DNA of 21,825 nucleotides. Origin: a virus. The stretch lies in the IMG/VR virus record IMGVR_UViG_3300020421_000162, positions 1 through 21,825 of that record; one strand, written 5' to 3'. How positions within the stretch are numbered: position 1 is the stretch's first letter; every line of letters begins with the position of its first letter. Positions 401-19,790 of the stretch are shown piece after piece. Below the pieces are notes generated by a model. It was not told where the DNA came from, did not search any database, and was given only the letters and a program-made list of their open reading frames with translations. The position numbers were made by a program, and so were the translations under genes.

Positions 401-1174
401 TTGACAAAAGAAGAATCACTTATTGAACTAAGGCCGCACTTTTCAACACCACTTGCATTGTTTAAAAATAAAAAATTAATCAAAAAACTTAAAAAATATA
501 TTTATGCTCAAAATGTTCAAGGAGTAGAATCAAATGTTGCACCACTAGTTAAAAGAAATTTAAAAGAATCTAAATTTGATTTCCTAATATCTCAAAAGAA
601 AATAATAATGGAACTAAAACAGTTTATTTGGGAATCTATTAATACTGTTTTAGGTGAATTACAAAATGAGAATTGCAAATATATGATTAATTTTAGGGAT
701 AGTTGGTTTCACATTGGAGCAACTAATAGCATCCATGAAGTTCATACACATTCAAATTGCAGTTGGTGTGGTGTATATGTAATTCAGGCAGGAGATGACG
801 ATGGAGGAGAAACAGTCTTTGTAAATCCAACTGCGATTACAGGATTAACTTATTGGGATTATGGATCTAGATGGGTAGAACAAGAAAGTCATACGAGAAT
901 TAAACCTGAAGATGGTCTTATGATACTTTTCCCTTCTCATATTTTGCACCATCAATCTTTATATAGAGGGAAAAAAGACCGTGTAATTATTGGTTTCAAC
1001 TTACAGATATTAGGTAAAGACCGTGATGGAAATGGAACGGAAGAACTAGTAGATATGGCAATTGCACCACCCAAACCACCAGTAAAACCTGCTATTGACC
1101 CTAATAGTCTAAGTAATGGGTTGCCTGCTGGAACTGGTATTGAGAACAACTACTATCAAACACAAGGGTATTAA
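401..1174 (+). CDS. Putative 2OG-Fe(II) oxygenase (TIGR02466-like)
   Basis: 257 aa, the only plus-strand gene. The likely reaction is 2-oxoglutarate- and Fe(II)-dependent oxidation of an unknown substrate. The double-stranded beta-helix signature is clear: W102 then HEVHTH (112-117) followed by SWCGVYVI, a DDDGGETVFVNP turn (about 132-143), then LFPSHILHH (176-184) and DRVIIGFN (193-200). Probable metal ligands are H115 or H117 and H183, with R194 as the 2OG carboxylate anchor. The first two histidines form HxH where many relatives have HxD, so the ligand set is uncertain. After residue 205 there is a Pro/Gly-rich tail (APPKPPVKP) of about 45 residues that is not part of the fold. The start is a TTG. 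The next Met (residue 70) would remove the N-terminal FSTPLALF region that fits the family, so I keep TTG. The gene ends exactly where the minus-strand oxygenase gene ends. Marine phages often carry such enzymes; their targets are mostly unknown. Confidence 0.8.
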   Translation: MTKEESLIELRPHFSTPLALFKNKKLIKKLKKYIYAQNVQGVESNVAPLVKRNLKESKFDFLISQKKIIMELKQFIWESINTVLGELQNENCKYMINFRDSWFHIGATNSIHEVHTHSNCSWCGVYVIQAGDDDGGETVFVNPTAITGLTYWDYGSRWVEQESHTRIKPEDGLMILFPSHILHHQSLYRGKKDRVIIGFNLQILGKDRDGNGTEELVDMAIAPPKPPVKPAIDPNSLSNGLPAGTGIENNYYQTQGY

Positions 1175-1822
1175 TTATTTACCAACAAAATTAATATTAC
1201 CTGACAGAGAAATTCTATCTTTTTTGCAATTAAAAAAAGGATACACTTGATGACATAAGGAATGCGGAAACAAGCAAATTTCCCCTTCGTTAGCACTACC
1301 TAAGGAAATTTCAAAATTTCTAATCTGTCCTAAAATATCAGTATAAACAAATTGAAAAGTAGAGGCACATGGGGAATTACCTTTGCCTAATAAAAATTTT
1401 TGATCTTCCACTTCAAAAGGAATTTTCAACCAAACAACAAATGAAAAAACTCCTTGATGATTATGCAAAGGGTTAAATTCGTTTTCTTTTTGATAATTAA
1501 CCCAAAAATTCTTTAAACGAAAACCTGTAATTTCTTCCTTGTCAAAAGTTATATTTGCTACAGTACTATTTCTGTAGAAATATTTATTAAAATAATTACT
1601 AACAACAGTTTTTAGGGTCTTATTATAAAAGAAATCATCTTTATCTTTTAATTCCAAGCTGGAAGAAATATTACCAGCCAGATTGCCGCTATAACTTACA
1701 TTTTCTTTTTCTGCTTTTTTCACTCTTTTCCATAAATACTTAACTGTTTCTTTGTCTAACTTTCCATATAGAACTGGCATATTGGGCAGATCAACTGATT
1801 GCCATGATTCGGTTTCTTTCAA
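1175..1822 (-). CDS. Putative 2OG-Fe(II) oxygenase-like protein
   Basis: 215 aa from TTG at 1822; a longer reading from TTG at 1846 gives 223 aa. I prefer 1822 because GGAGG at 1837-1833 lies 10 nt upstream and the start overlaps the previous gene's stop as TTGA, a typical coupled junction. The longer version would translate the ribosome-binding site as MAGGGGRY. In 215-aa numbering the fold signature is NFWVNYQ (106-112), NPLHNHQGVFSFVVWLKIP (117-135), then CLFPHSLCHQV (183-193) and KKDRISLSGN (200-209). Likely ligands are H120 or H122 and H191, with R203 as the 2OG-binding arginine. It shares the beta-helix pattern of the plus-strand oxygenase but differs in sequence, so they are not recent duplicates. 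Its position directly after the fibre genes suggests that it modifies a fibre, virion or host-surface component, which is an inference. Confidence 0.72.
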   Translation of the reverse strand: MKETESWQSVDLPNMPVLYGKLDKETVKYLWKRVKKAEKENVSYSGNLAGNISSSLELKDKDDFFYNKTLKTVVSNYFNKYFYRNSTVANITFDKEEITGFRLKNFWVNYQKENEFNPLHNHQGVFSFVVWLKIPFEVEDQKFLLGKGNSPCASTFQFVYTDILGQIRNFEISLGSANEGEICLFPHSLCHQVYPFFNCKKDRISLSGNINFVGK

Positions 1823-2307
1823 ATACCTACCACCTCCACCTGCCAACTTGTGGTTTCTTCATCCCATTTATATATTTTCCCCTCTTCTAACTCCTCGTTA
1901 GGGACAGGAACAGGAGCTTCAAAATCATTTCTTGTTTCGTTATAAACCCATGATTTAAATATTTTACCCGCATTCTCAGCCCACCAGTCCTTAACTTCAT
2001 CTTGTACAGCTTTCTTCTCTTCTTCTGTAAAAGGTATGATGACCCAATTTTCTTGCCAATAACCATCAACTTTTATGTACTCAGGATATTCATCTGTAGC
2101 CGCTCCAATTGCATCGTGATCTACCAACCTTTGATAGGCTGCTACTTCAGGACGTTTTACTTTCTTAAATGGTTCATATTTAGAAGGAACACCAGTTGAA
2201 AAATCATGGTCAGGATAAGTTGCTAGTAAATTTTTATAGTGATGAGGATGTTCAATAGCGTTTCCTTCCGCATCAACTTCTATAAAAAGATCATTTGGAT
2301 CTGACAT
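1819..2307 (-). CDS. Small acidic fibre-region protein, possible tail fibre assembly factor
   Basis: 162 aa, ATG at 2307 with AGGAG seven nt upstream, directly after the TAA of the glycine-rich gene. It is rich in acidic and aromatic residues, with no membrane segment or signal. The C-terminal third contains SWVYNETRNDFEAPVPVP followed by YKWDEETTSWQ, a Trp/Asn/Pro-rich motif that I associate with small proteins encoded next to cyanophage tail fibres. The centre has a helix (TEEEKKAVQDEVKDWWAENA). Its place immediately downstream of two fibre/adhesin genes matches the position of fibre chaperones (Tfa or gp38 type) in other phages. There is no direct sequence signature of those families, so the role is inferred from context. 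A virion-associated fibre accessory is equally possible. Confidence 0.7.
   Translation of the reverse strand: MSDPNDLFIEVDAEGNAIEHPHHYKNLLATYPDHDFSTGVPSKYEPFKKVKRPEVAAYQRLVDHDAIGAATDEYPEYIKVDGYWQENWVIIPFTEEEKKAVQDEVKDWWAENAGKIFKSWVYNETRNDFEAPVPVPNEELEEGKIYKWDEETTSWQVEVVGI
1833..1837 (-). promoter_or_regulatory. Ribosome binding site deciding the TTG start at 1822
   Basis: GGAGG in the context GGTGGAGGTGGTAGG, 10 nt before TTG 1822-1820, lies inside the last codons of the upstream 162-aa gene. The TTG overlaps that gene's TGA stop (1821-1819), which suggests translational coupling. Confidence 0.6.
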
Positions 2308-3336: not shown

Positions 3337-6300
3337 TTAGGAAATACCACTTCCTGTCATATATACAGTGCTTGATGCGTGCCAATAAAATGTAGCCATG
3401 CCACGGGAGGCGAGTGTATAGGTGCTGTTGTTAGAACCATCAGCAGTGTTATATAAGTAACTTGTTTGTCTGTTTATTGTTATATCACTTGAAGTTACGT
3501 TAATTACAGAAGCAACATATCCAGTAGCTGCTGTTCCAAGGTAGAAATTACCATTTGCAAATGCACAACGTCCTCTAGTACCACTATTAACCCAGTTATT
3601 TGAATATATATTATAGCCAGGTACGTCCCTAAGAAATCCATATTGATCATTGACACCATAATATGAAGTAAGTATGTTACTTGACCAGTAAAGATTGGAT
3701 GATCCACCAAAGGAACCACTGTTATTAAATTGAATTTGTTGATTAGATCCTGCGGGAGAAGTAGCAGGAATATTAGTTAGATTTGCGGCACTAACTGCTG
3801 GAAGTGTTGCAGGGAAACGAGCATCAGGAATCGTTCCAGATCCTAAATTACTTGCATTTAAAGCTGTTAAAGATGTACCAGCTCCGCTAAATCCTGTCGC
3901 AGTTAACAAGCCAGTTGAAGGATTATAAGTTAAACCTGTGTCTGTCTCTGCCCCTTGTGATCCTGTCGCTCCATCTGCAAACAATGGGTAAACAGTCTCA
4001 TCTGTTGAGTTATTAGCAGTAACTGTAAATTCAGTTGCTAAAGATGCTGTACCTGTAAAAGCAGTTGCAACAACTGTTCCTGTTACTGTTATCCCTGTTG
4101 CGGTAGTTTCTAGCTTGGCGGCTGTGTTGTGTTCTAAAACTACACCTGTATAACCATCAATATAAAGCTTTAAATGTGAGTTATTTATATGACTTCCAAC
4201 TGTGTCTTCATGCCAGATTTGAAGGTCGTTACCGTCACCGAAAGTTAATTTATTATCATCTTTAAATTCTAAATTATTGGTGGATGGATCCCAGACTAAA
4301 GCATCTGCACTTGTTCCGTCTGAGAACTGTAAAGTACCATTGAAATTTATATTGCCGTCAAATTTAGCAGTGGTTCCATCTGAATAAAGCAATAAATCTC
4401 CTGCGACCCCTGATCCCGCACCAAGCCTGATTTTGGCGTTGTCTGTAAAATAAAATGAATCATTTGGATTATCCCAAACAATATTCTTACTATTACCTAT
4501 AAAAAGAACACTTTTGTGAAAATCTATCTGTGAGGCGGCTCCTGAAAAAGTAGCAAATGTATTTGTAGAACCAGAACCTGTATCACATTTAAATTGTATG
4601 GTTCCACCACCTTGAGTTTCAAGAACCCCCTCTGATCCGTTTGAGTAAATTCTTAAATCTTGAACGCCACCAGCACCAACACCAAACTTCAAGACATCAT
4701 CTGAAGTTCCATCTGAACTATCTCCAAAGATAATATTTTCACTGTTCGTATCAAGATCACCACCTAGTTGAGGTGAGGTGTCATTTACTAAATCACTGCT
4801 TACAGTTTGCCAACTTCCATCACCTCTTAAAAAGTTAGAACTGCTTGCTGTTCCAGTTCCTAATCTTGCTGTGGCTACCGTCCCAGAAGCTAAATTTGAC
4901 GCATTTAGAGTTGATAGATCTGCTTGATTACTATTTGTCTGAACGCTGTTACCCATTAAGGCATGAGCAGAGCATTGATAATGAAGAACTTGTGGTGTCG
5001 TATCCGAAACAACTATCTGTGTATAAGCACCAGAAGACCCAGCAGTTCCGTTTGTAGTAACTCCTGTTGTATAAGCAGTTGTCTTATCTGCCTCTAAATA
5101 GAAACGTAGTGGATGCCCTGAGTTAGAACTATCAGCTTGATCAAACTTATATGTACGTCCTGGTGTAAGAGTTAGGAACGGTGATTCTTTTCCTCCTATT
5201 AAATATCCAGAACTAGAACCAGAACCGTTATAACGATGTGCGCCAGTTTTACTTGCAACAGTGACCGTTAATGTTTTTGCATTACCTGTATAAGTTGCAT
5301 TTAGATTTGAGAAACCAACTAAAGCTCCATCATTAGTTAATGTTGCATCTCCTGTAAATGTTGGTGATGATGTTGAACCTGGATCTACCCAAGATAAAGT
5401 CCCAGATCCATCACTAGCTAAGACATAACCAGAAACAGCAGCATCAGTAGAAGGAAGAGTTAATGTAAAACTACTTGCAACCGTAGCTGGTGATTGAAGA
5501 GCTATGTAATGTGAACTGTCAGCATCAGCAAAGCGTAAATCTTTTTGAGCATTAAGAGTTAAATCTCCAGTTAACGTACCGCCAGTTAAAGGAAGTTTTG
5601 TATTGTCAGTAGCGTTATCTGATGCCCATCCTAAATTTCCAGACCCATCAGATTTTAAAAACTGTGTTCCAGTTGAATCTGTCGCTGGAAGAATCCAAGT
5701 AATATCAGAGGCAACAGAAGCAGGAGCTTTTAACGCTAGATAATTTGCACCGTTTGAATCTGCTTCAGAAAAACGAACTTCTTTTGCATTATCAACAATC
5801 AAGTTGCCAGTCATTGTTCCACCAGCTTTCGGTAGAGCAGCGTTGGCAGTTGCAGTTGTAGCGGTTAATGCGTCATTTACAGTTTTGACAGCAGCAGGAG
5901 TAGCAGCAGTTGTAGCACTTGTACTGTTTGTTGAATCTGTTAGTTGTAAAACACCAACGGCACTTGTCGTTCCAGTCGTGATTTTGCTACCAGTAATCGC
6001 TGCTGTATTTGAAACATCAGCATTAACAATTGCGCCAGCAGTAATAGAAGTTAAACCTGCATTTGTTATCCCTATGTCACCCGTAACTGCAACTGCTGTT
6101 GCTACATTTGAACCATTCCCTACAAGAATTTGAGCTGAACTTAAAGCTGCTAACTTGCTAAAATCAATCGCAGCATTAGCGGCTAAATTTGCATTAACTA
6201 AACTTGCATCAACCATTGTTGATGTAACTGTATTCGTATCACCAGTTGTCACGACTGTTCCAGTCCTGTCTGGAAAAGTAATTGTCTTATCGCTTCCTGC

Positions 6301-8487
6301 TGGATCGGTTACAGCAAGAGTTAATTCATAAGCATCAACAGTTGATCCTTCAAAAACAAGGCTTCCTGTATTCCCTATTAATAATTCACCAGTAACAGTT
6401 CCACCAGCAAAACCCATCTTCTCAGTTTCAAGCTCCTGCAAGGCATCTTGAACATTAGTTGCACTTAACTGACCGTAAGGCGTGAAGGTGATATTGCTTG
6501 CTACCTGCCCTGCTACGGTTTGCGATAAATCGACCTCGTTCCAGCTACTCCCCGAACTGTTAGTTACACCCAAGACATAGTCAGGTGGAGCAAGAGCAAC
6601 AACTGGAGCTGGAGAACTTGGAGTTCCAGAATTTGAAACTACGACATACACGCCATCCGTTGTCGAGCTAGGCGTTGGCAAGTTAGAACCAACTGCTAAA
6701 CCAGCCGCAATTCCTGCGGAAGTGGTCGCCACCATTTGGCTTGTTGCAGCGTTAAATGTGCCACCAAAAACAAGACTTCCTTTTGTAAGTGTTGTAATTG
6801 CTTGCCAAGCGTTTCCATCCCAGATGAACGCATCCTCAGAAACAGTATCAAAAAGAATTTGACCGTTAAATTGTGCTGTTGGATAACCGTTTTGAGCTAT
6901 TGATTGGAATAAAGCTGTTGAAGCATTACTTAATTTAGAACCATCAATTGAATCGTTCCCAATTCTTGCAGCAGGAATCGTTCCACTTGTTAGAACTGTT
7001 GCCGCCAAATTAGGTATGTCAGAAGCAGCAAGTGTTGTCCCAGCAGTTGCAACACCTTTATTATTTACAGTGACTTTCGTATAAGTTCCTGCACTAATTC
7101 CACTAGTCGAAGTTGTTAATCCACCAGAACCGCTAACAGTTAATCCGCCACCTGCTGTGATTTGAACAGCACCTTTAGCACTAGCAGTTGCAGTAGGAAG
7201 ATCAGAAGCAGCTAAAGCCGTTGCGGCTGTAATCATCCCTTGTCCATTAAACGTGATACCAGAAACAGTTGCACCAGTAACGCTATTGGTGATTGATAAA
7301 GCACCTGCTCCACTAACACTTAAACCAGTTCCAACAGATATCCCACCGACAGCACTAGTCGTTGCAACAGGCAAATCTCCTGCTACCAGTGCAGTTGTCG
7401 CAGTAATCAATCCCTGAGCGTTATAAGTGATTCCTGATCTTGTACCTGCTGTTATTGCATTATTAATTCCAAGATTTCCAGAAGATACATTTAGCGATCT
7501 ATTGATGTTGGCAGTCGCTAATTTTGCGGCTGTAATTGTGCCATCAGTAATCTTGGCATCAGTAACGGCTCCTGTTGCTAACTTTGCAGTCGTTACATTT
7601 GCATCAACTATTGCGTTAGTGTCAACAGCGTTATTAGCTAAAGCGGCTGCATCAACAGCGTTTGCTGCAAGCTTGGCACTGGTTATAGCATCATCAACAA
7701 TCTTGGCGGTAGTTACTGCATCATTAGCAAGTGAACCAGCAGCTAATGTTCCTGATAATTTCGCAACAGTAACAGCTCCATCAGCAATTTGATTTGTTCC
7801 AATCGCTCCATTAGCAATCTTTCCTGACGTAACCGTTAAATTTGCAAGATTAGAACCTGTAATTGTTGTTGCTGCAATTTTAGCTCCAGTAATTGCACCA
7901 TTAGCAACCGCAGCAGTATCAACAGCATCGTCAGCCAACTCTGTAGCAGTAACAGCGTTAGTTGCTATTTGAGAAGCTGTTATTCCTCCAGAAGCAATTT
8001 TTGCTCCAGGTATATCTCCATCACTAAGATTTAATTTGGCATAAGTAACTGTTGTATTTGGAATTTTATTAACAGTTACAGCACCATTAGCTATTGCGTT
8101 TTCATCTACAGCGTTGTCTGCAAGTTCAGTAGCAGTTATTGCATTAGTAGCTATTTGAGTTGCAGTAACAGTATCGTTAACTAATTTCGCACCAGTTATT
8201 GTTGCATCTGTAATCTTAGTTGCAGTAACAGCTCCATTCGCAAGTTTGGCAGTTGTAACAGCAAGATTCTGGAGAGCATTTGTTGTTACTTGGTTTGCAC
8301 CTAACGTTCCAACCTTTGCACCAGGGATATCACCATCATCTATTAACGCAACACCAGCAGCAATTAAATCTTTAACTGTTACCTTTTTTGTTTCAGTCGC
8401 TGACAGGTCTGCAACTGCTAATGCGTCCGTAGAACCAACATTACCTTCCACAAGAGGAGGTAGTGCTGTGATTTTTAAATCTGCCAT
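3337..8487 (-). CDS. Giant modular tail fibre protein with cupredoxin-like domain
   Basis: 1716 aa, ATG at 8487. Modules in order: N-terminal fibre-attachment motif (MADLKITALPPL, ETKKVTVKDLI, about 1-42); about 25 decapeptide repeats (76-326); three degenerate units of about 60 residues with 'GITFNGQGMITAATAL..SDLPTA' (about 340-510); a region ending in NVQDALQELETEK (about 525-690); a collar-like repeat GVLQLTDSTNSTSATTAATP (about 840-860); two copies of a 'L.GDLTLNAQKDLRFADADSSHYIAL...LTLPSTD' unit (about 900-1060); a cupredoxin-like domain (about 1070-1185); units with 'KLTFGDGNDLQIWHE' typical of marine phage fibres (about 1240-1450); and a C-terminal head with VYMTGSGIS. The low-complexity Ala/Thr/Asn composition and periodic repeats fit a long trimeric beta-structured fibre. 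It should attach to the tail tip and reach the host surface. No Shine-Dalgarno is obvious. The domain labels are from recognition by eye. Confidence 0.85.
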   Translation of the reverse strand: MADLKITALPPLVEGNVGSTDALAVADLSATETKKVTVKDLIAAGVALIDDGDIPGAKVGTLGANQVTTNALQNLAVTTAKLANGAVTATKITDATITGAKLVNDTVTATQIATNAITATELADNAVDENAIANGAVTVNKIPNTTVTYAKLNLSDGDIPGAKIASGGITASQIATNAVTATELADDAVDTAAVANGAITGAKIAATTITGSNLANLTVTSGKIANGAIGTNQIADGAVTVAKLSGTLAAGSLANDAVTTAKIVDDAITSAKLAANAVDAAALANNAVDTNAIVDANVTTAKLATGAVTDAKITDGTITAAKLATANINRSLNVSSGNLGINNAITAGTRSGITYNAQGLITATTALVAGDLPVATTSAVGGISVGTGLSVSGAGALSITNSVTGATVSGITFNGQGMITAATALAASDLPTATASAKGAVQITAGGGLTVSGSGGLTTSTSGISAGTYTKVTVNNKGVATAGTTLAASDIPNLAATVLTSGTIPAARIGNDSIDGSKLSNASTALFQSIAQNGYPTAQFNGQILFDTVSEDAFIWDGNAWQAITTLTKGSLVFGGTFNAATSQMVATTSAGIAAGLAVGSNLPTPSSTTDGVYVVVSNSGTPSSPAPVVALAPPDYVLGVTNSSGSSWNEVDLSQTVAGQVASNITFTPYGQLSATNVQDALQELETEKMGFAGGTVTGELLIGNTGSLVFEGSTVDAYELTLAVTDPAGSDKTITFPDRTGTVVTTGDTNTVTSTMVDASLVNANLAANAAIDFSKLAALSSAQILVGNGSNVATAVAVTGDIGITNAGLTSITAGAIVNADVSNTAAITGSKITTGTTSAVGVLQLTDSTNSTSATTAATPAAVKTVNDALTATTATANAALPKAGGTMTGNLIVDNAKEVRFSEADSNGANYLALKAPASVASDITWILPATDSTGTQFLKSDGSGNLGWASDNATDNTKLPLTGGTLTGDLTLNAQKDLRFADADSSHYIALQSPATVASSFTLTLPSTDAAVSGYVLASDGSGTLSWVDPGSTSSPTFTGDATLTNDGALVGFSNLNATYTGNAKTLTVTVASKTGAHRYNGSGSSSGYLIGGKESPFLTLTPGRTYKFDQADSSNSGHPLRFYLEADKTTAYTTGVTTNGTAGSSGAYTQIVVSDTTPQVLHYQCSAHALMGNSVQTNSNQADLSTLNASNLASGTVATARLGTGTASSSNFLRGDGSWQTVSSDLVNDTSPQLGGDLDTNSENIIFGDSSDGTSDDVLKFGVGAGGVQDLRIYSNGSEGVLETQGGGTIQFKCDTGSGSTNTFATFSGAASQIDFHKSVLFIGNSKNIVWDNPNDSFYFTDNAKIRLGAGSGVAGDLLLYSDGTTAKFDGNINFNGTLQFSDGTSADALVWDPSTNNLEFKDDNKLTFGDGNDLQIWHEDTVGSHINNSHLKLYIDGYTGVVLEHNTAAKLETTATGITVTGTVVATAFTGTASLATEFTVTANNSTDETVYPLFADGATGSQGAETDTGLTYNPSTGLLTATGFSGAGTSLTALNASNLGSGTIPDARFPATLPAVSAANLTNIPATSPAGSNQQIQFNNSGSFGGSSNLYWSSNILTSYYGVNDQYGFLRDVPGYNIYSNNWVNSGTRGRCAFANGNFYLGTAATGYVASVINVTSSDITINRQTSYLYNTADGSNNSTYTLASRGMATFYWHASSTVYMTGSGIS
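4933..5280 (-). other. Cupredoxin-like domain inside the tail fibre
   Basis: Residues about 1070-1185 of the fibre. A beta-rich stretch with LTLTPGRTYKFDQADSS leads to SGHPLRFY (H1125). A second block, YTQIVVSDTTPQ, leads to LHYQCSAHALMGNSV with C1172, H1175 and M1178. The pattern H-x46-C-x2-H-x2-M matches type-1 copper sites: the H-to-C distance equals that of plastocyanin (H37, C84), and C-x2-H-x2-M is the amicyanin loop. The ligand residues are seen directly; copper binding is inferred. Confidence 0.6.
7510..8262 (-). repeat. About 25 tandem decapeptide-coding (30-bp period) repeats in the tail fibre
   Basis: Residues 76-326 of the fibre parse into 10-residue units such as AVTTAKLANG, AVTATKITDA, TITGAKLVND, TVTATQIATN and AITATELADN. 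The consensus is (A/T)(V/I)Txx(K/E/Q)(I/L)A(D/N/T)(G/N/D). Only three units break the period (two of 11 residues around GDIPGAKI, one of 9 at LAAGSLAND). The DNA follows with a 30-bp period but is diverged, so this is an old protein repeat rather than a fresh tandem duplication. It probably forms a stiff repetitive shaft. Confidence 0.8.
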
Positions 8488-14750: not shown

Positions 14751-15235
14751 CTATTTTGAATACTTCCAGTGACAGGCAAATGCCCAACCATTTTTGTAGT
14801 TAAGATACGATTAGGAGCATTAGCACCAACAGCATCAATACTGCTGCTTAATAAAACCTCAATTGTTGAAGGGTCATAAGACAAGGAAGACGCTAGCCAT
14901 GTTTCTGTTGTTAATAATTTATTAGTTGTAAAATCTGTATTCATCAAAAAAGTATCTACATGTATGTGATATTTATTATCTACAGCTTTTTTAGCGTATC
15001 CCATACTAATTTCATTATTAGCAAGAATAAGATTTGATTCCAAATTATCTCCTGACCTATTTCGAGCTGCTCCTTGATAAATAAAACTCAAATATTGGTG
15101 AGTTTTATTACTAATTCCATGAGTAATAGGAGTGTCATATTTCCCATTTTGAAATCTATTCGGAGTTAAATCATTAGGATTATCACCACTAGAAGTGGTA
15201 ACAGCAATGAAATTAGTTAAAACAACGATGCTCAT
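14747..15235 (-). CDS. L-like minor tail protein (tail tip)
   Basis: 162 aa, ATG at 15235, overlapping the tape measure stop by four bases (ATGA), with the K-like gene overlapping its own end the same way. Features are YLSFIYQGAARNRSGDNLES (48-67), SNLILANNEISMGYA, TTETWLASSLSYDPSTIEVL (about 108-127), and a C-terminal PNRILTTKMVGHLPVTGS. The 'R.GDNL.S.L.LANN ... W..S...D...IE.LL ... PNR.LT...G.LP' pattern is one I recognise in L/DUF1833-type tail proteins of phages. It sits between tape measure and K as L does in lambda. Lambda L carries a Cys cluster for metal; none is present here. Confidence 0.62.
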   Translation of the reverse strand: MSIVVLTNFIAVTTSSGDNPNDLTPNRFQNGKYDTPITHGISNKTHQYLSFIYQGAARNRSGDNLESNLILANNEISMGYAKKAVDNKYHIHVDTFLMNTDFTTNKLLTTETWLASSLSYDPSTIEVLLSSSIDAVGANAPNRILTTKMVGHLPVTGSIQNR

Positions 15236-18200
15236 AATCCAATATTGCTCCTTCTACTGCGTGAGTTCTGAAGCGTTGATAATGTTCTCGCTTCTCCAGC
15301 CCTTGCCCCTCTAGATGCTGCTGAATTGATGATCTGACCTATTGCAGATTTAGGAACAAATTCTTCTGAGTTGAAGTTCAATATAGGTCCACTGTAATTA
15401 ACAGTTGTTTGTGCATGTGCTCCACCCCCTGAAGAAGCTTGACCAGTGCCAGGAATCACAGATTCACCCCTCGCTCCTGCTGAATACCGTTGCATTGACT
15501 GAGCCATCTTAGAGGCTGGAATTATATACTCGTCTTCTCCTGCTTCTCCCACAAGCCCCATCGTGGGTCGTGTAGCAACTCCACCAGAAGCAAACGCTTG
15601 GAAGCCTCCTCTTTCATAACCTCCTTCTGCATTTAATTTAAAAGCACCCATAATTGCATCTTTAAGCATCATGCTTCCAATTTGCTTTGCAATAGAAGCT
15701 AATGATTCTCCTAATGATTTAGTGCCATCAATTAAACCAGTAATCGCATCGGTCAAGCCTGTTGCAATCGTTTCTTTTATTTTTCCCCACTGTTTATCTA
15801 ACTTCTTAGTATTTTCAGCTTCTTTTGTTAATTCACCATTCTTTTGTACCAACGCTGTTACTTGTGTCCTGTACCCCTCTCCTATTTTATCTACTATTTT
15901 TTCTATTACTTGATGCTGTTTAATCTCTTCTTCGTTACCGTCTATTTTTCCTTGTAATAAATTATTTTCATTTTGTAATTGAGTTAATACGTCTTCAGCT
16001 TCATCTTTTTTCTCCTTTCTAAACTCATCTATTTTTGTTTGTAAAGCAAAATTAACTTTAGCTATATCTAATTTTGCTGCTTCAATTTTACGCTGCTTTT
16101 CTGCGTCATCGCTACTCGCAGTATCTTCCATTAACTTACTTGTTATACTTGCTATTTCTTTTTGTGCATTCAACCTAAACTCAAGCTCTTTATCTTCGGC
16201 TGATCTAGCCTGTGCGATCTTCTGATCTATACCAAATAGAGCAGCTTTAAGTTCATTTTGTCTTTCTAACTTTCCTATTACCTGTTGTTCTTGTTCGTTT
16301 ATCTTTTTCATTTCTTTACCAAACTCTGTAGTTATTCCAGCTCTTTTTGTGATTCTCTCATTCATAAAGTTACCTTCTAAGTTTGCTAAATCAGCAGCAG
16401 GGAGAGCCTGATTATCTGTCCGTAAATCTCCTAGTTGACTTTTTGTTTCTGCATCAAACCCTAAAAGCTTTTTACTAAGTTCTCCTTGTGCTCTTGCCCT
16501 TTTATCAGAGAAAGTATTACCTGTAGGCATAGCAGCAGTAATTTCTAACTGTTTCGCTAAGAGTTTTGTATTATTTTCAAACTTTCTACCTAGTTCAGCC
16601 GCTTTAGCTATTGACTCTTGTAATGCAGGATTTAGCCCATCCGTTACACCAGCTATAAGGTCAGGCAATCCTGTCCAACCTGTTATAAACACCAAACCTT
16701 TTCTTATTAACGCAAAGGTTTCATTGAAAGACTTAAATACTTCAGACACTAAACGTAATACAAGCCCTAAAGCAGCAATAACTGGACTTCCAATAATTCC
16801 TAAGAACGCACCAACAGAACCAACAATGTCATTCCATGCAGATTTAAGAATATTGACAGCGTTATTTACGTCTTGAAGAGATCCAGCAGAAGCTCCTGTT
16901 TGTTTTTGCACTTGTTGAGCTGCTAACGCTCTTGCTTTTTCTATATTTCCTGCTCTTGTAAGAAGAGTTATTTGAGTTTGCAGTTCTGCACTTAAACGGA
17001 CACCTGATTCAACCAAGTCATCCATATTTAAGGTACGAAGAGATTCACCTAGTTTTGCTGCTTTTTGAACAGCAGTATCCATCATCGTTCCTATCGCACT
17101 ACCAAGAATCTGAGCACCAAATCCCTGCATACCCATCTTGTTTCCGAGTAAAGCACCACCAACACCACCACCAACAGAACCAACTCCTCCTCCAAACAAG
17201 AGAGGGAAACCAGCTCCAAGCATTAAGTTTTCTCCTCCTTTTCCTCCCATCATTCCACCTTTTCTACGTCTTATTCGATTCCAATTCTTAAGTCTGTCTC
17301 TAGCAGCCTTCTTCGATGCAGCAGAATCTCTCTTCGTTATTTTCTCTTGATTCTTCTTGGATTGTTCTATTTTCTTTTCTATTTCCCACGTTTGTCTTAA
17401 AACTCCTGTTCTTTTTGCTTCTAGTTCTAAATGCCTTCTAATTGATTTAGTAACAGCATTTTCTGCGCCTGGTCTGTTTGGTCCTGGCATTCCTGCTGGT
17501 CTACCTACTGTCTTAGGGAAAGGCCCAAACATTCCGTCTGGACGATTTACAGCTCCCGAAACTCTATCTATTTGATCTGCTCTTCTGCTGAAATCAGCAA
17601 ATCCACTACCAGCTCTAGCTGCTTTGCTTGCCCTAGTATTTTGAACAATCTTTCCTTTCATTCCTAAAGTTTGGAATTTTTTCAATGCCTCACTACTTAT
17701 ATTTATCTCCATAGTCATCTCTCTGAAAAACCCTTTCGCATCGAACGCAGCTTTACCCATCTTGTCTAAGCCTTTTATTAACTTCGGAACCCCTTGCACG
17801 GCAACATTTGTAAGTTTGTCGCCAAAAGCCATATAAGCTACACCCATAGATGCAGCTATAACTGGATGAGCAGCAGCAAGAGCAGCTAATTGACTAAGTT
17901 TTCCACTAAGAAATCCTGTTTTTACAGCAGCAACTTCAGCTCCCTTGCTAAATGGATTTAACGCACCAAAAGCGACTGATCTTAAATTTTTAAGCCAACC
18001 GACAGTTGTAGCTATATCTTGCGAAGCTTTGTTTAATCCCATAGCAGCTCCCAATCCAGCTACCCCCATAGCTCTCTTTCCTGCTGGAGATCCCATTACA
18101 TCTCCCAATTTGCTAAATCCCTCCATGCTTCTAGCTGCTTTATTCACACTTTTTGCTGTTTCTTCTGCACTACGAGTTATCCCACTAAATGTCCTGGAAG

Positions 18201-18354
18201 CCTTTCCTCCCATACGATCTAACTTTTCATTTATCTGATCTAATCCTTTAACTAGCTTTTCATTACTCGCATTTATTCCCTTTAAATTCTCTGACAACTT
18301 ATTCAGTTGGTTCAGATTCTTGACAACAATATCAATTTTGGTTTCTAAGCTCAC
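15232..18354 (-). CDS. Tail tape measure protein
   Basis: 1040 aa, GTG at 18354, 26 nt after the end of the frameshifted chaperone frame. Begins with helical heptad-like sequence (KIDIVVKNLNQLNKLSENL), has hydrophobic segments at about 155-177 (LAALAAAHPVIAASMGVAYM), about 375-405 (Gly-rich LLFGGGVGSVGGGVGGALLG) and about 508-540 (GAFLGIIGSPVIAALGLVL), and a long charged coiled-coil region (about 600-880). The C-terminus (about 920-950) has the diagnostic FASGGVATRPTMGLVGEAGEDEYIIPAS, read as FASGGV and GLVGEAGEDEYIIPAS, as in lambda gpH. The protein sets tail length and exits into the host envelope. At the usual 1.5 angstrom per residue it predicts a tail of roughly 150 nm. The GTG has no strong Shine-Dalgarno and may depend on coupling to upstream translation. 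Confidence 0.93.
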   Translation of the reverse strand: MSLETKIDIVVKNLNQLNKLSENLKGINASNEKLVKGLDQINEKLDRMGGKASRTFSGITRSAEETAKSVNKAARSMEGFSKLGDVMGSPAGKRAMGVAGLGAAMGLNKASQDIATTVGWLKNLRSVAFGALNPFSKGAEVAAVKTGFLSGKLSQLAALAAAHPVIAASMGVAYMAFGDKLTNVAVQGVPKLIKGLDKMGKAAFDAKGFFREMTMEINISSEALKKFQTLGMKGKIVQNTRASKAARAGSGFADFSRRADQIDRVSGAVNRPDGMFGPFPKTVGRPAGMPGPNRPGAENAVTKSIRRHLELEAKRTGVLRQTWEIEKKIEQSKKNQEKITKRDSAASKKAARDRLKNWNRIRRRKGGMMGGKGGENLMLGAGFPLLFGGGVGSVGGGVGGALLGNKMGMQGFGAQILGSAIGTMMDTAVQKAAKLGESLRTLNMDDLVESGVRLSAELQTQITLLTRAGNIEKARALAAQQVQKQTGASAGSLQDVNNAVNILKSAWNDIVGSVGAFLGIIGSPVIAALGLVLRLVSEVFKSFNETFALIRKGLVFITGWTGLPDLIAGVTDGLNPALQESIAKAAELGRKFENNTKLLAKQLEITAAMPTGNTFSDKRARAQGELSKKLLGFDAETKSQLGDLRTDNQALPAADLANLEGNFMNERITKRAGITTEFGKEMKKINEQEQQVIGKLERQNELKAALFGIDQKIAQARSAEDKELEFRLNAQKEIASITSKLMEDTASSDDAEKQRKIEAAKLDIAKVNFALQTKIDEFRKEKKDEAEDVLTQLQNENNLLQGKIDGNEEEIKQHQVIEKIVDKIGEGYRTQVTALVQKNGELTKEAENTKKLDKQWGKIKETIATGLTDAITGLIDGTKSLGESLASIAKQIGSMMLKDAIMGAFKLNAEGGYERGGFQAFASGGVATRPTMGLVGEAGEDEYIIPASKMAQSMQRYSAGARGESVIPGTGQASSGGGAHAQTTVNYSGPILNFNSEEFVPKSAIGQIINSAASRGARAGEARTLSTLQNSRSRRSNIGL

Positions 18355-18380: not shown

Positions 18381-18575
18381 TTACCTACGTCTGCGGTTTT
18401 TTCGCATTTCTTCTTCCTGATCTTCGTTTAAAACTTGAAAATAAGCACTCCATCCAATAATTTCTTCCATCGTCATCTGACGTATCTCCGCTAAAGACTT
18501 TCCTAATTCTTTAGCGATACCAAACTGAAGCATCAGTAAATTATCTTTACGAAGCTCCTTACTTAGCTCTTTGGG
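18381..18575 (-). CDS. T-like extension of the tail assembly chaperone, made by -1 frameshift
   Basis: An open frame of 62 codons continues from the slippery site (codons after AAA begin at 18569) to TAA at 18383-18381, -1 relative to the G frame. It encodes ELSKELRKDNLLMLQFGIA, KELGKSLAEIRQMTMEEII, then GWSAYFQVLNEDQEEEMRKN and a basic end RRRR. The 'FGIAKELGKSLAEIRQMT.EEI.GW.AYFQ' pattern is typical of gpT-type domains of siphovirus tail chaperones. There is no well-placed start: the first ATG (18533) is 21 nt from AAGGAG and would cut the domain, giving 49 aa. Fused to G it makes a predicted 181-aa product (119 + 62). It fills what would otherwise be a 208-nt gap before the tape measure, exactly where lambda T lies. 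Confidence 0.82.
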   Translation of the reverse strand, partial: PKELSKELRKDNLLMLQFGIAKELGKSLAEIRQMTMEEIIGWSAYFQVLNEDQEEEMRKNRRRR

Positions 18576-18925
18576 TCTAGTTGATCCTCATCGTCTGTAA
18601 TCACAGCAAGCATTAACTTTTGCAAGTCAGCATCCTTAACTTCGTTCTTTAAAACGTCAATTTCTCCAAGATTAAACAATCTTTGACCAGTATCATCTTG
18701 TGCTTTTGTCATTAAAAGTCTTAATGCAAATTCATTAGCATCATCAGATTTAGCTCCCTTTTGTGCTCTTTCTCTTTCTGCCATTGTTAATGGTGTAACC
18801 CACATCTCAAATACAGATCCATCAGATAATTCAACTTCTTTTTTAACTGCATCTAAATTTGCAGCTTTCTTTAAACGATCTACAGCTCTCAATCCTGATC
18901 GAGAAGGTTTAGGACTAGTTGTCAT
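18563..18925 (-). CDS. Tail assembly chaperone (G-like)
   Basis: 120 aa, ATG at 18925, between the major tail protein and the tape measure. It is a hydrophilic, helical protein: basic N-terminus (SPKPSRSGLRAVDRLKKA), a central strand block EVELSDGSVFEMWVTPLTMAE (written EVELSDGSVFEMWVTPL, about 31-47), and a helical C-terminal half ending LQKLMLAVITDDEDQLDPKS. Length, charge, position and the slippery sequence two codons from its stop match the G protein of lambda-like phages, which with a minority G-T frameshift product coats the tape measure and recruits tube subunits. It is not a virion component in known cases. It is the first gene after an intrinsic terminator, so its expression should be lower than that of the tube protein. 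Confidence 0.85.
   Translation of the reverse strand: MTTSPKPSRSGLRAVDRLKKAANLDAVKKEVELSDGSVFEMWVTPLTMAERERAQKGAKSDDANEFALRLLMTKAQDDTGQRLFNLGEIDVLKNEVKDADLQKLMLAVITDDEDQLDPKS
18569..18575 (-). promoter_or_regulatory. Programmed -1 frameshift slippery heptamer C CCA AAG
   Basis: On the minus strand the last codons of G are GAC CCA AAG AGC TAA. The heptamer C CCA AAG fits X XXY YYZ, letting CCA/AAG tRNAs re-pair on CCC/AAA and enter the T frame two codons before the G stop. Lambda uses G GGA AAG at the same place. A downstream stem is weak (GAGCT with AGCTT, loop of 8). Confidence 0.78.
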
Positions 18926-19019: not shown

Positions 19020-19790
19020 TTATGTAGAACTTAGGTCGAAAGCAGGGAGACTTGCTGGACGGAAGTTAACTGTTACTTCTTGAGCATCATCAGGGTTAAC
19101 ACTGAAGCTTGCAGAAGTTAGCGTTGCATCAAAACTGATTGAACGACTAAGAGTATCACTAACGTTGCCACCACTAAATACACGGTCTGTATAAAGCTTG
19201 AACGCTGCACCGACTTGCTGACGTTGAAGAACGTCTTCTACCAATCTGTTTGATAGAGCTGAGTCTTCGTTTGTCATATATGTAGAAGCAGTACCAGAAC
19301 CATCACCAAATCCAGCGATGTAAGTTCTAAATGGAACGTATTGACCAGGGGCTTGACCAATTGTTGTTACATCGATCTCAGCTCTTTCAATTTCAAATGT
19401 CCACTCTCTTACTTGTCCGATAGAAGCAAAATCGTTGTAATAAACTTGAAATTCGTTAGGAGCTGCTGCTGTTCCTACGTCAGTCAAGTCAACAGCAGAA
19501 CCTCCATTGGTAGCAGAAACCTTTAAAGCTCCTGTTGCTGCTGTATAAGCATTAACGTAATAAGTTGTTCCAGCAGTCAATCCAGCAGGCAAAGTTCCTG
19601 TCCCTGTTTCACCAGTAGAGCTATCTATAACTTTAAACTTGACTGGATCGCCTACCTTTAAGTTTAAGTAAGTTTGAACAACCATTGTTTCTGTGCCAAT
19701 GGTGACATCAGTAGTACTAAAAGTACCTGTTGTTCCTGCGGGTTTGTAGTAGAGAGCACCTGATGTGCCAGATAAGACGGTTACGGCCAT
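19020..19790 (-). CDS. Major tail (tube) protein
   Basis: 256 aa, ATG at 19790. Residues about 25-110 form an inserted beta domain (LNLKVGDPVKFKVID, LPAGLTAGTTYYVNAY, ALKVSATNGGSAVDL). The tube core follows: VREWTFEIERAEIDVTTIGQ (about 127-146), YIAGFGDGSGTAST (about 157-170), QVGAAFKLYTDRVF (about 195-208), and ISFDATLTSASFSVNPDDAQEVTVNFRPAS at the end (seen as SISFDATLTSASFSV and EVTVNFRPAS). This is the layout of siphovirus tube proteins (lambda V type), which stack in hexameric rings. Its position after the terminator protein gene and before the chaperone and tape measure, plus its own intrinsic terminator, fits a highly expressed structural protein. The inserted domain is probably surface-exposed. 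Confidence 0.85.
   Translation of the reverse strand: MAVTVLSGTSGALYYKPAGTTGTFSTTDVTIGTETMVVQTYLNLKVGDPVKFKVIDSSTGETGTGTLPAGLTAGTTYYVNAYTAATGALKVSATNGGSAVDLTDVGTAAAPNEFQVYYNDFASIGQVREWTFEIERAEIDVTTIGQAPGQYVPFRTYIAGFGDGSGTASTYMTNEDSALSNRLVEDVLQRQQVGAAFKLYTDRVFSGGNVSDTLSRSISFDATLTSASFSVNPDDAQEVTVNFRPASLPAFDLSST

Follow-up and report, generated by a model that had tools for sequence, protein, structure and literature searches.

Between the gene for a putative tail assembly chaperone (G) and that for the tape measure protein, a marine cyanophage relative carries a short stretch of DNA that a standard gene call leaves blank, and the question raised by this locus is whether the stretch encodes the T half of a G-T fusion (GT) that ribosomes would reach by shifting frame near the end of G. 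The window analyzed here is the whole stretch of DNA, 21,825 nucleotides, of IMG/VR virus record IMGVR_UViG_3300020421_000162 (positions 1 to 21,825). Xu, Hendrix and Duda reportedly found in 2004 that the chaperone frameshift is conserved in long-tailed phages.

Locus organization and protein families of G and T

The gene order in the window is tail terminator, major-tail-protein position, G, T, and tape measure (Table 1), and two overlapping frames between the major-tail-protein position and the tape measure are found in the same order in S-2L, CRP-831, and phi3LM21. The tape measure protein is locally similar to its counterparts in Synechococcus phages S-LBS1, S-CBS1, and S-CBS3. No family match was found for the protein at the major-tail-protein position, and a "major tail protein" is annotated at the equivalent place in S-2L. 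Further neighbors in the module were assigned by PHROG as tail terminator (phrog_179), head closure (phrog_161), and adaptor (phrog_477). G ends with GAC CCA AAG AGC TAA, and the T stop (TAA, 18381) lies 26 nt before the GTG start of the tape measure gene at 18354. Positions and lengths given in a preliminary description of this DNA (62 codons, a 181-aa fusion, and the 26-nt gap) were exact to the base, and the gene coordinates confirmed that 208 bp remain unannotated if T is ignored.

Table 1. Features of the G/T locus in the window
Feature	Position	Strand	Remarks
G, tail assembly chaperone, 0 frame	18563-18925	minus	120 aa; ATG start, TAA stop
Slippery heptamer C_CCA_AAG	18575-18569	minus	X_XXY_YYZ register, near the 3' end of G
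T frame (-1)	18381-18569	minus	62 codons + TAA; C-terminal part of GT
GT fusion reading	18381-18925	minus	putative product; predicted 181 aa via a -1 shift at 18569
SD-like GAGGA	18585-18589	minus	possible stimulator (suggestive only), 9 nt upstream of the heptamer
Weak hairpin	18527-18558	minus	~10 nt downstream of the heptamer
ATG inside the T frame	18531-18533	minus	codon 13; rejected as true T start
Tape measure protein	15232-18354	minus	downstream neighbor; local match to Synechococcus phage tape measures; fixes the G/T position
Protein at major-tail-protein position	19020-19790	minus	upstream neighbor of G; assigned by position

Elsewhere in the window, a convergent pair of genes at 401-1174 (plus strand) and 1175-1846 (minus strand), whose products may be 2-oxoglutarate/Fe(II) oxygenase-type proteins, adjoins tail fibre genes, and a 1716-aa protein encoded at 3337-8487 (minus strand), probably a tail fibre, carries many DNAVTTAKI-like repeats near its N terminus.

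G matched the PHROG families phrog_20784 (E = 2.5e-31) and phrog_344, "tail assembly chaperone" (E = 4.7e-4), and phrog_344 was matched by the G proteins of 35/41 relatives; Pfam gave only sub-threshold chaperone matches (PF16459, Phage_TAC_13; E = 0.0044), in 7/41 relatives. The predicted model of G, of moderate confidence (pLDDT 77), was most similar among solved structures to the HK97 tail assembly chaperone (2OB9; Foldseek E = 7.5e-4; Z = 9.0 over 102 residues), followed by YqbN (3KLU; Z = 8.0). T was modeled as a confident helical domain (pLDDT 93) and matched phrog_26456 and phrog_337, "tail protein", the latter in 32/36 family members (best E = 2.9e-8; E = 0.0022 for the T of the window), with the window's T also weakly matching phrog_14766 and phrog_16513 at their C-terminal ends. 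For the structure models, rows from annotated phage records were left out of the alignments. Both halves were matched by single predicted viral proteins, namely the "tail assembly chaperone" of Rhodobacter phage RcRhea (160 aa) and D6PII1 (179 aa). A Pfam search with T returned no match, a sequence search of solved structures chance-level matches only, and a profile search of genome contigs with the family alignment no usable pattern. Gene order, PHROG families, and fold together support the G/GT architecture that had been proposed for the locus.

Conservation of the slippery site and constraint on the T frame

Within the genes of the window, the end of G holds the only in-frame CCCAAAG, and heptamers of the form X_XXY_YYZ fill 53 of 6863 in-frame slots, which corresponds to a chance of ~5% for one in the slots available here. 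As relatives we took the best 80 of 466 IMG/VR stretches from a scan with the fused protein. CCCAAAA or CCCAAAG was present at the end of G in all 81 loci (the window plus the best 80 of 466 relatives), whose 70 distinct haplotypes carried CCCAAAA in 48 cases and CCCAAAG in 22. The junction itself is kept, with GAC and CCA each in 69/69 aligned distinct haplotypes and AAA or AAG in 47 and 22, respectively, whereas the codons flanking it vary, with several synonyms in use immediately upstream. In the remainder of the G genes of the window's cluster, Asp is encoded by GAC in 14% of cases (146/1037) and by GAT in 86%. CCCAAAG had been pointed out as unusual; it does differ from the site of lambda, but C_CCA_AAG is listed beside G_GGA_AAG as highly shift-prone in E. 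coli (Atkins et al., 2016; PMC5009743), and the same point in relatives holds CCCAAAA, AAAAAAC, and others.

The T frame was open for 62 codons in all but one of the relatives (best 80 of 466), the exception being a locus in which a deletion shortens it to 30 codons (L015). Over 66 haplotypes, pN/pS was 0.165 in the -1 frame, the two alternative frames gave 0.94 and 3.6, and the entropy at the three codon positions of the -1 frame was 0.39, 0.16, and 0.86. In T codons 4-13, which follow the G stop and reach no further than the first ATG, pN/pS was 0.135 (remainder of T: 0.16), indicating that translation enters T upstream of this ATG. The -1 frame evolves as a protein from its first codons. 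Two observations had been named in the preliminary description as speaking against a frameshift, a -1 frame without protein conservation and relatives having a separate T gene but no heptamer; the conservation is strong, and no relative was seen that keeps a separate T gene with a well-placed start while lacking the shift site.

T had also been described as having no well-placed start of its own, which holds as far as a well-spaced Shine-Dalgarno sequence is concerned, although an ATG does exist at codon 13 (18533). T might be read as a separate small gene that begins at this ATG through reinitiation after the G stop, the heptamer being incidental. All 66 T haplotypes from the window's clade keep the ATG and an AAGGAG is present downstream of the G stop, as reinitiation would have it; this AAGGAG, the nearest, nevertheless lies 21 nt upstream of the ATG and is accounted for by conserved Lys-Glu codons of T, and constraint on the -1 frame is no weaker in the 10 codons that separate the G stop from the ATG than in the remainder of T. 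Moreover, KBS-S-2A and S-2L have no ATG at the equivalent position, the first 15 T codons contain no ATG, GTG, or TTG in 117/145 of the relatives whose T is in the +1 frame, and reinitiation leaves the invariant CCCAAAR unexplained. An independent start at 18533 was rejected on the grounds of the spacing, the constraint upstream of the ATG, and its absence in relatives, and we regard reinitiation as very improbable. Slippage of RNA polymerase, not of the ribosome, would be another route to the fusion, and relatives with AAAAAAC do have runs of at least six A. At the window site, however, the longest runs of one base comprise three nucleotides (CCC AAA G), fewer than known transcriptional slippage requires, and the register of the P- and A-site codons is exact in 219/221 -1 haplotypes among the matches listed, making this route slightly less probable still. 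Least probable, in our estimate, is that the -1 frame is unexpressed, either as a decayed gene or as a chance open frame. The fact that T is annotated as part of a fusion in no cultured relative examined would fit such a frame, but the frame-specific purifying selection over 66 haplotypes is strong, T is open in all relatives but one, and it is homologous to phage tail families.

Given the conservation of CCCAAAR, the purifying selection on the -1 frame, and the chaperone-type family and fold of G, we infer that the window carries a lambda-type G/GT -1 frameshift with a minority 181-aa GT product, a reading to which we assign a probability of roughly 0.94 from the sequence data.

Elements that may stimulate the shift were sought on both sides of the heptamer. 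The downstream hairpin had been described as weak, which agrees with its predicted energy (-10.8 kcal/mol; z about -1.2), and no consensus RNA structure was found in the window's clade (68 sequences of the window type). Downstream of the junction, the mean z was -1.65 in 14 representatives of the -1 type (-0.10 in the upstream control) and -0.32 in 26 representatives of the +1 type (control: -0.53). The stem of the KBS-S-2A type, which is related to that of the window, showed some covariation (score 0.176 vs. 0.129 for shuffled and at most 0.119 for slid versions). Downstream structures seem to turn over between subclades. Upstream of the heptamer, SD-like 4-mers were present in 32/39 distinct sequences of the window's cluster vs. 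15.0 expected from synonymous draws, and were not enriched in the S-H1 cluster (10/41 vs. 17.5 expected); the GAGGA of the window is suggestive as a possible stimulator. A separate set of relatives (L130, L131, L133, L145, L156, and L163) has a different and much longer predicted stem (~14 pairs; z about -4.3 in L145) downstream of CCCAAAR, unlike the stem of the window's own subclade.

Two probable directions of frameshifting in the wider family

The wider set comprised seven further scans and cultured phages, with counts that refer to the matches listed and are not population frequencies. The 462 G/T pairs among the matches listed comprised 287 with a -1 T frame, 173 with a +1 T frame, and 2 single-indel artefacts. 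The distinct -1 haplotypes among the matches listed carried CCCAAAA (95), AAAAAAC (74), CCCAAAG (37), mixed or rarer heptamers (13), or none (2, with C_CCC_AAG), such that an X_XXY_YYZ heptamer occupies an allowed slot in 219/221 distinct -1 junctions. C_CCC_AAG takes the place of the heptamer in two GC-rich relatives (L126 and L162). In-frame fusions of G and T in L111 and L249 were treated as sequence errors, because a single indel accounts for each and the usual shift site is still present. Prochlorococcus phage P-HS2 (L471), also of the -1 type, has no X_XXY_YYZ heptamer and reads GCA_AAG (only A_AAG).

Every distinct +1 haplotype among the matches listed (141/141) has AAA_AGN at the junction, as AAA_AGC (134), AAA_AGT (4), or AAA_AGA (3); these loci are L085, L188, L195, L199-L200, L206-L285, L286-L360, and L366. 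At other places in this group, only 61% of Lys codons are AAA and Ser is encoded by all six of its codons, so that AAA_AG is retained to a degree that codon preference does not explain. In a large part of the AG-345-A17 clade, the open T frame begins 5 nt ahead of the G stop, exactly at AAA_AGC. Purifying selection also acts on T where it lies in the +1 frame, with pN/pS values of 0.34 and 0.30 vs. 0.9-2.1 for the other frames. The simplest mechanism suggested by these junctions would be a tRNA-Lys that slips +1 on AAAA before the AGN codon. A -2 shift was rejected, as the codon before AAA varies (TTG, TTA, ATG, CTG, TCC, AGC, GCC, CTC, and others), which makes re-pairing two bases back impossible.

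We placed both types on a maximum-likelihood tree of G and T from which the junction, long branches, and indel rows were left out. Shift direction needs three changes on this tree, and well-supported branches force three. Holding all +1 rows together lowered the log-likelihood by 67.6 (AU p = 0.0013), and a single origin of the +1 type is rejected. Three +1 loci (L188, L195, and L366) group with KBS-S-2A, which is of the -1 type (support 99/95), within a clade that is mostly -1 (100/99). As A_AAA_AAC and AAA_AGC are one base apart in the second codon, a substitution together with a nearby indel could interconvert -1 and +1 sites. It is likely that recoding between G and T has been kept while its direction has not, with -1 (CCCAAAR, AAAAAAC) or +1 (AAA_AGN) sites and a direction that switched at least three times, once within the KBS-S-2A clade. 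No report of both directions within one close phage family was found in the literature searched, most subscription journals lying outside its scope. These relatives amount to a natural experiment in which one protein pair is reached by -1 and by +1 slippage, and make it possible to test directly whether the G:GT ratio is held by selection as the mechanism drifts.

Proposed mechanism and comparison with known systems

According to the lambda-type model, most ribosomes would stop at the TAA of G and release the 120-aa tail assembly chaperone, and a minority would pause with tRNA-Pro on CCA in the P site and tRNA-Lys on AAG in the A site. Both tRNAs would then slip back together by one base onto CCC AAA, and reading of 62 further codons would yield the 181-aa GT. 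By analogy with lambda, G may coat the tape measure protein, the T portion of the less abundant GT may recruit major tail subunits until the tail reaches the length of the ruler, and G and GT would leave before the tail is completed.

G and T also occupy this place in the cultured phages KBS-S-2A, S-2L, S-H1, Roseobacter phage CRP-831, and Sinorhizobium phage phi3LM21, where the site is AAAAAAC or CCCAAAG. Cyanophage KBS-S-2A is similar to the window in its locus and in its GT (62% identical) but differs in having A_AAA_AAC and a stronger downstream stem instead of CCCAAAG and a weak one. The stretch between G and the tape measure is unannotated in KBS-S-2A (L082) and P-HS2 (L471), S-H1 (L084) has part of T annotated as a hypothetical gene of its own, 144 bp long, and none of these three phages has an annotated G-T fusion. 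Gene callers miss the T half in the window's marine phage group, and correcting T completes the tail module.

The closest parallel is G/GT of lambda, where -1 shifting occurs at a low level, G and GT are bound to the tape measure protein, and T recruits the major tail protein (PMC5009743). The window resembles it in the position of the locus between the major tail protein and tape measure, in the slippery heptamer near the end of G, in a short T extension without a start of its own, and in the minority fusion product to be expected. It differs in the heptamer, which is GGGAAAG in lambda vs. CCCAAAG or CCCAAAA in the window's group, and Pfam detects no sequence relationship of its G to lambda gpG. 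The HK97 chaperone (2OB9) and YqbN (3KLU) share a similar fold with G at an identity of only 11-13%. Frameshifts of +1 in tail chaperones are known or proposed in haloviruses (PMC5009743; PMC7230728), and HSTV-2 and the HF1 group shift +1 at the G/T junction as would the +1-type relatives of the window, but the HF1 motif, in archaeal viruses, is TTT-CGC, whereas the marine and freshwater relatives of the window have AAA_AGN.
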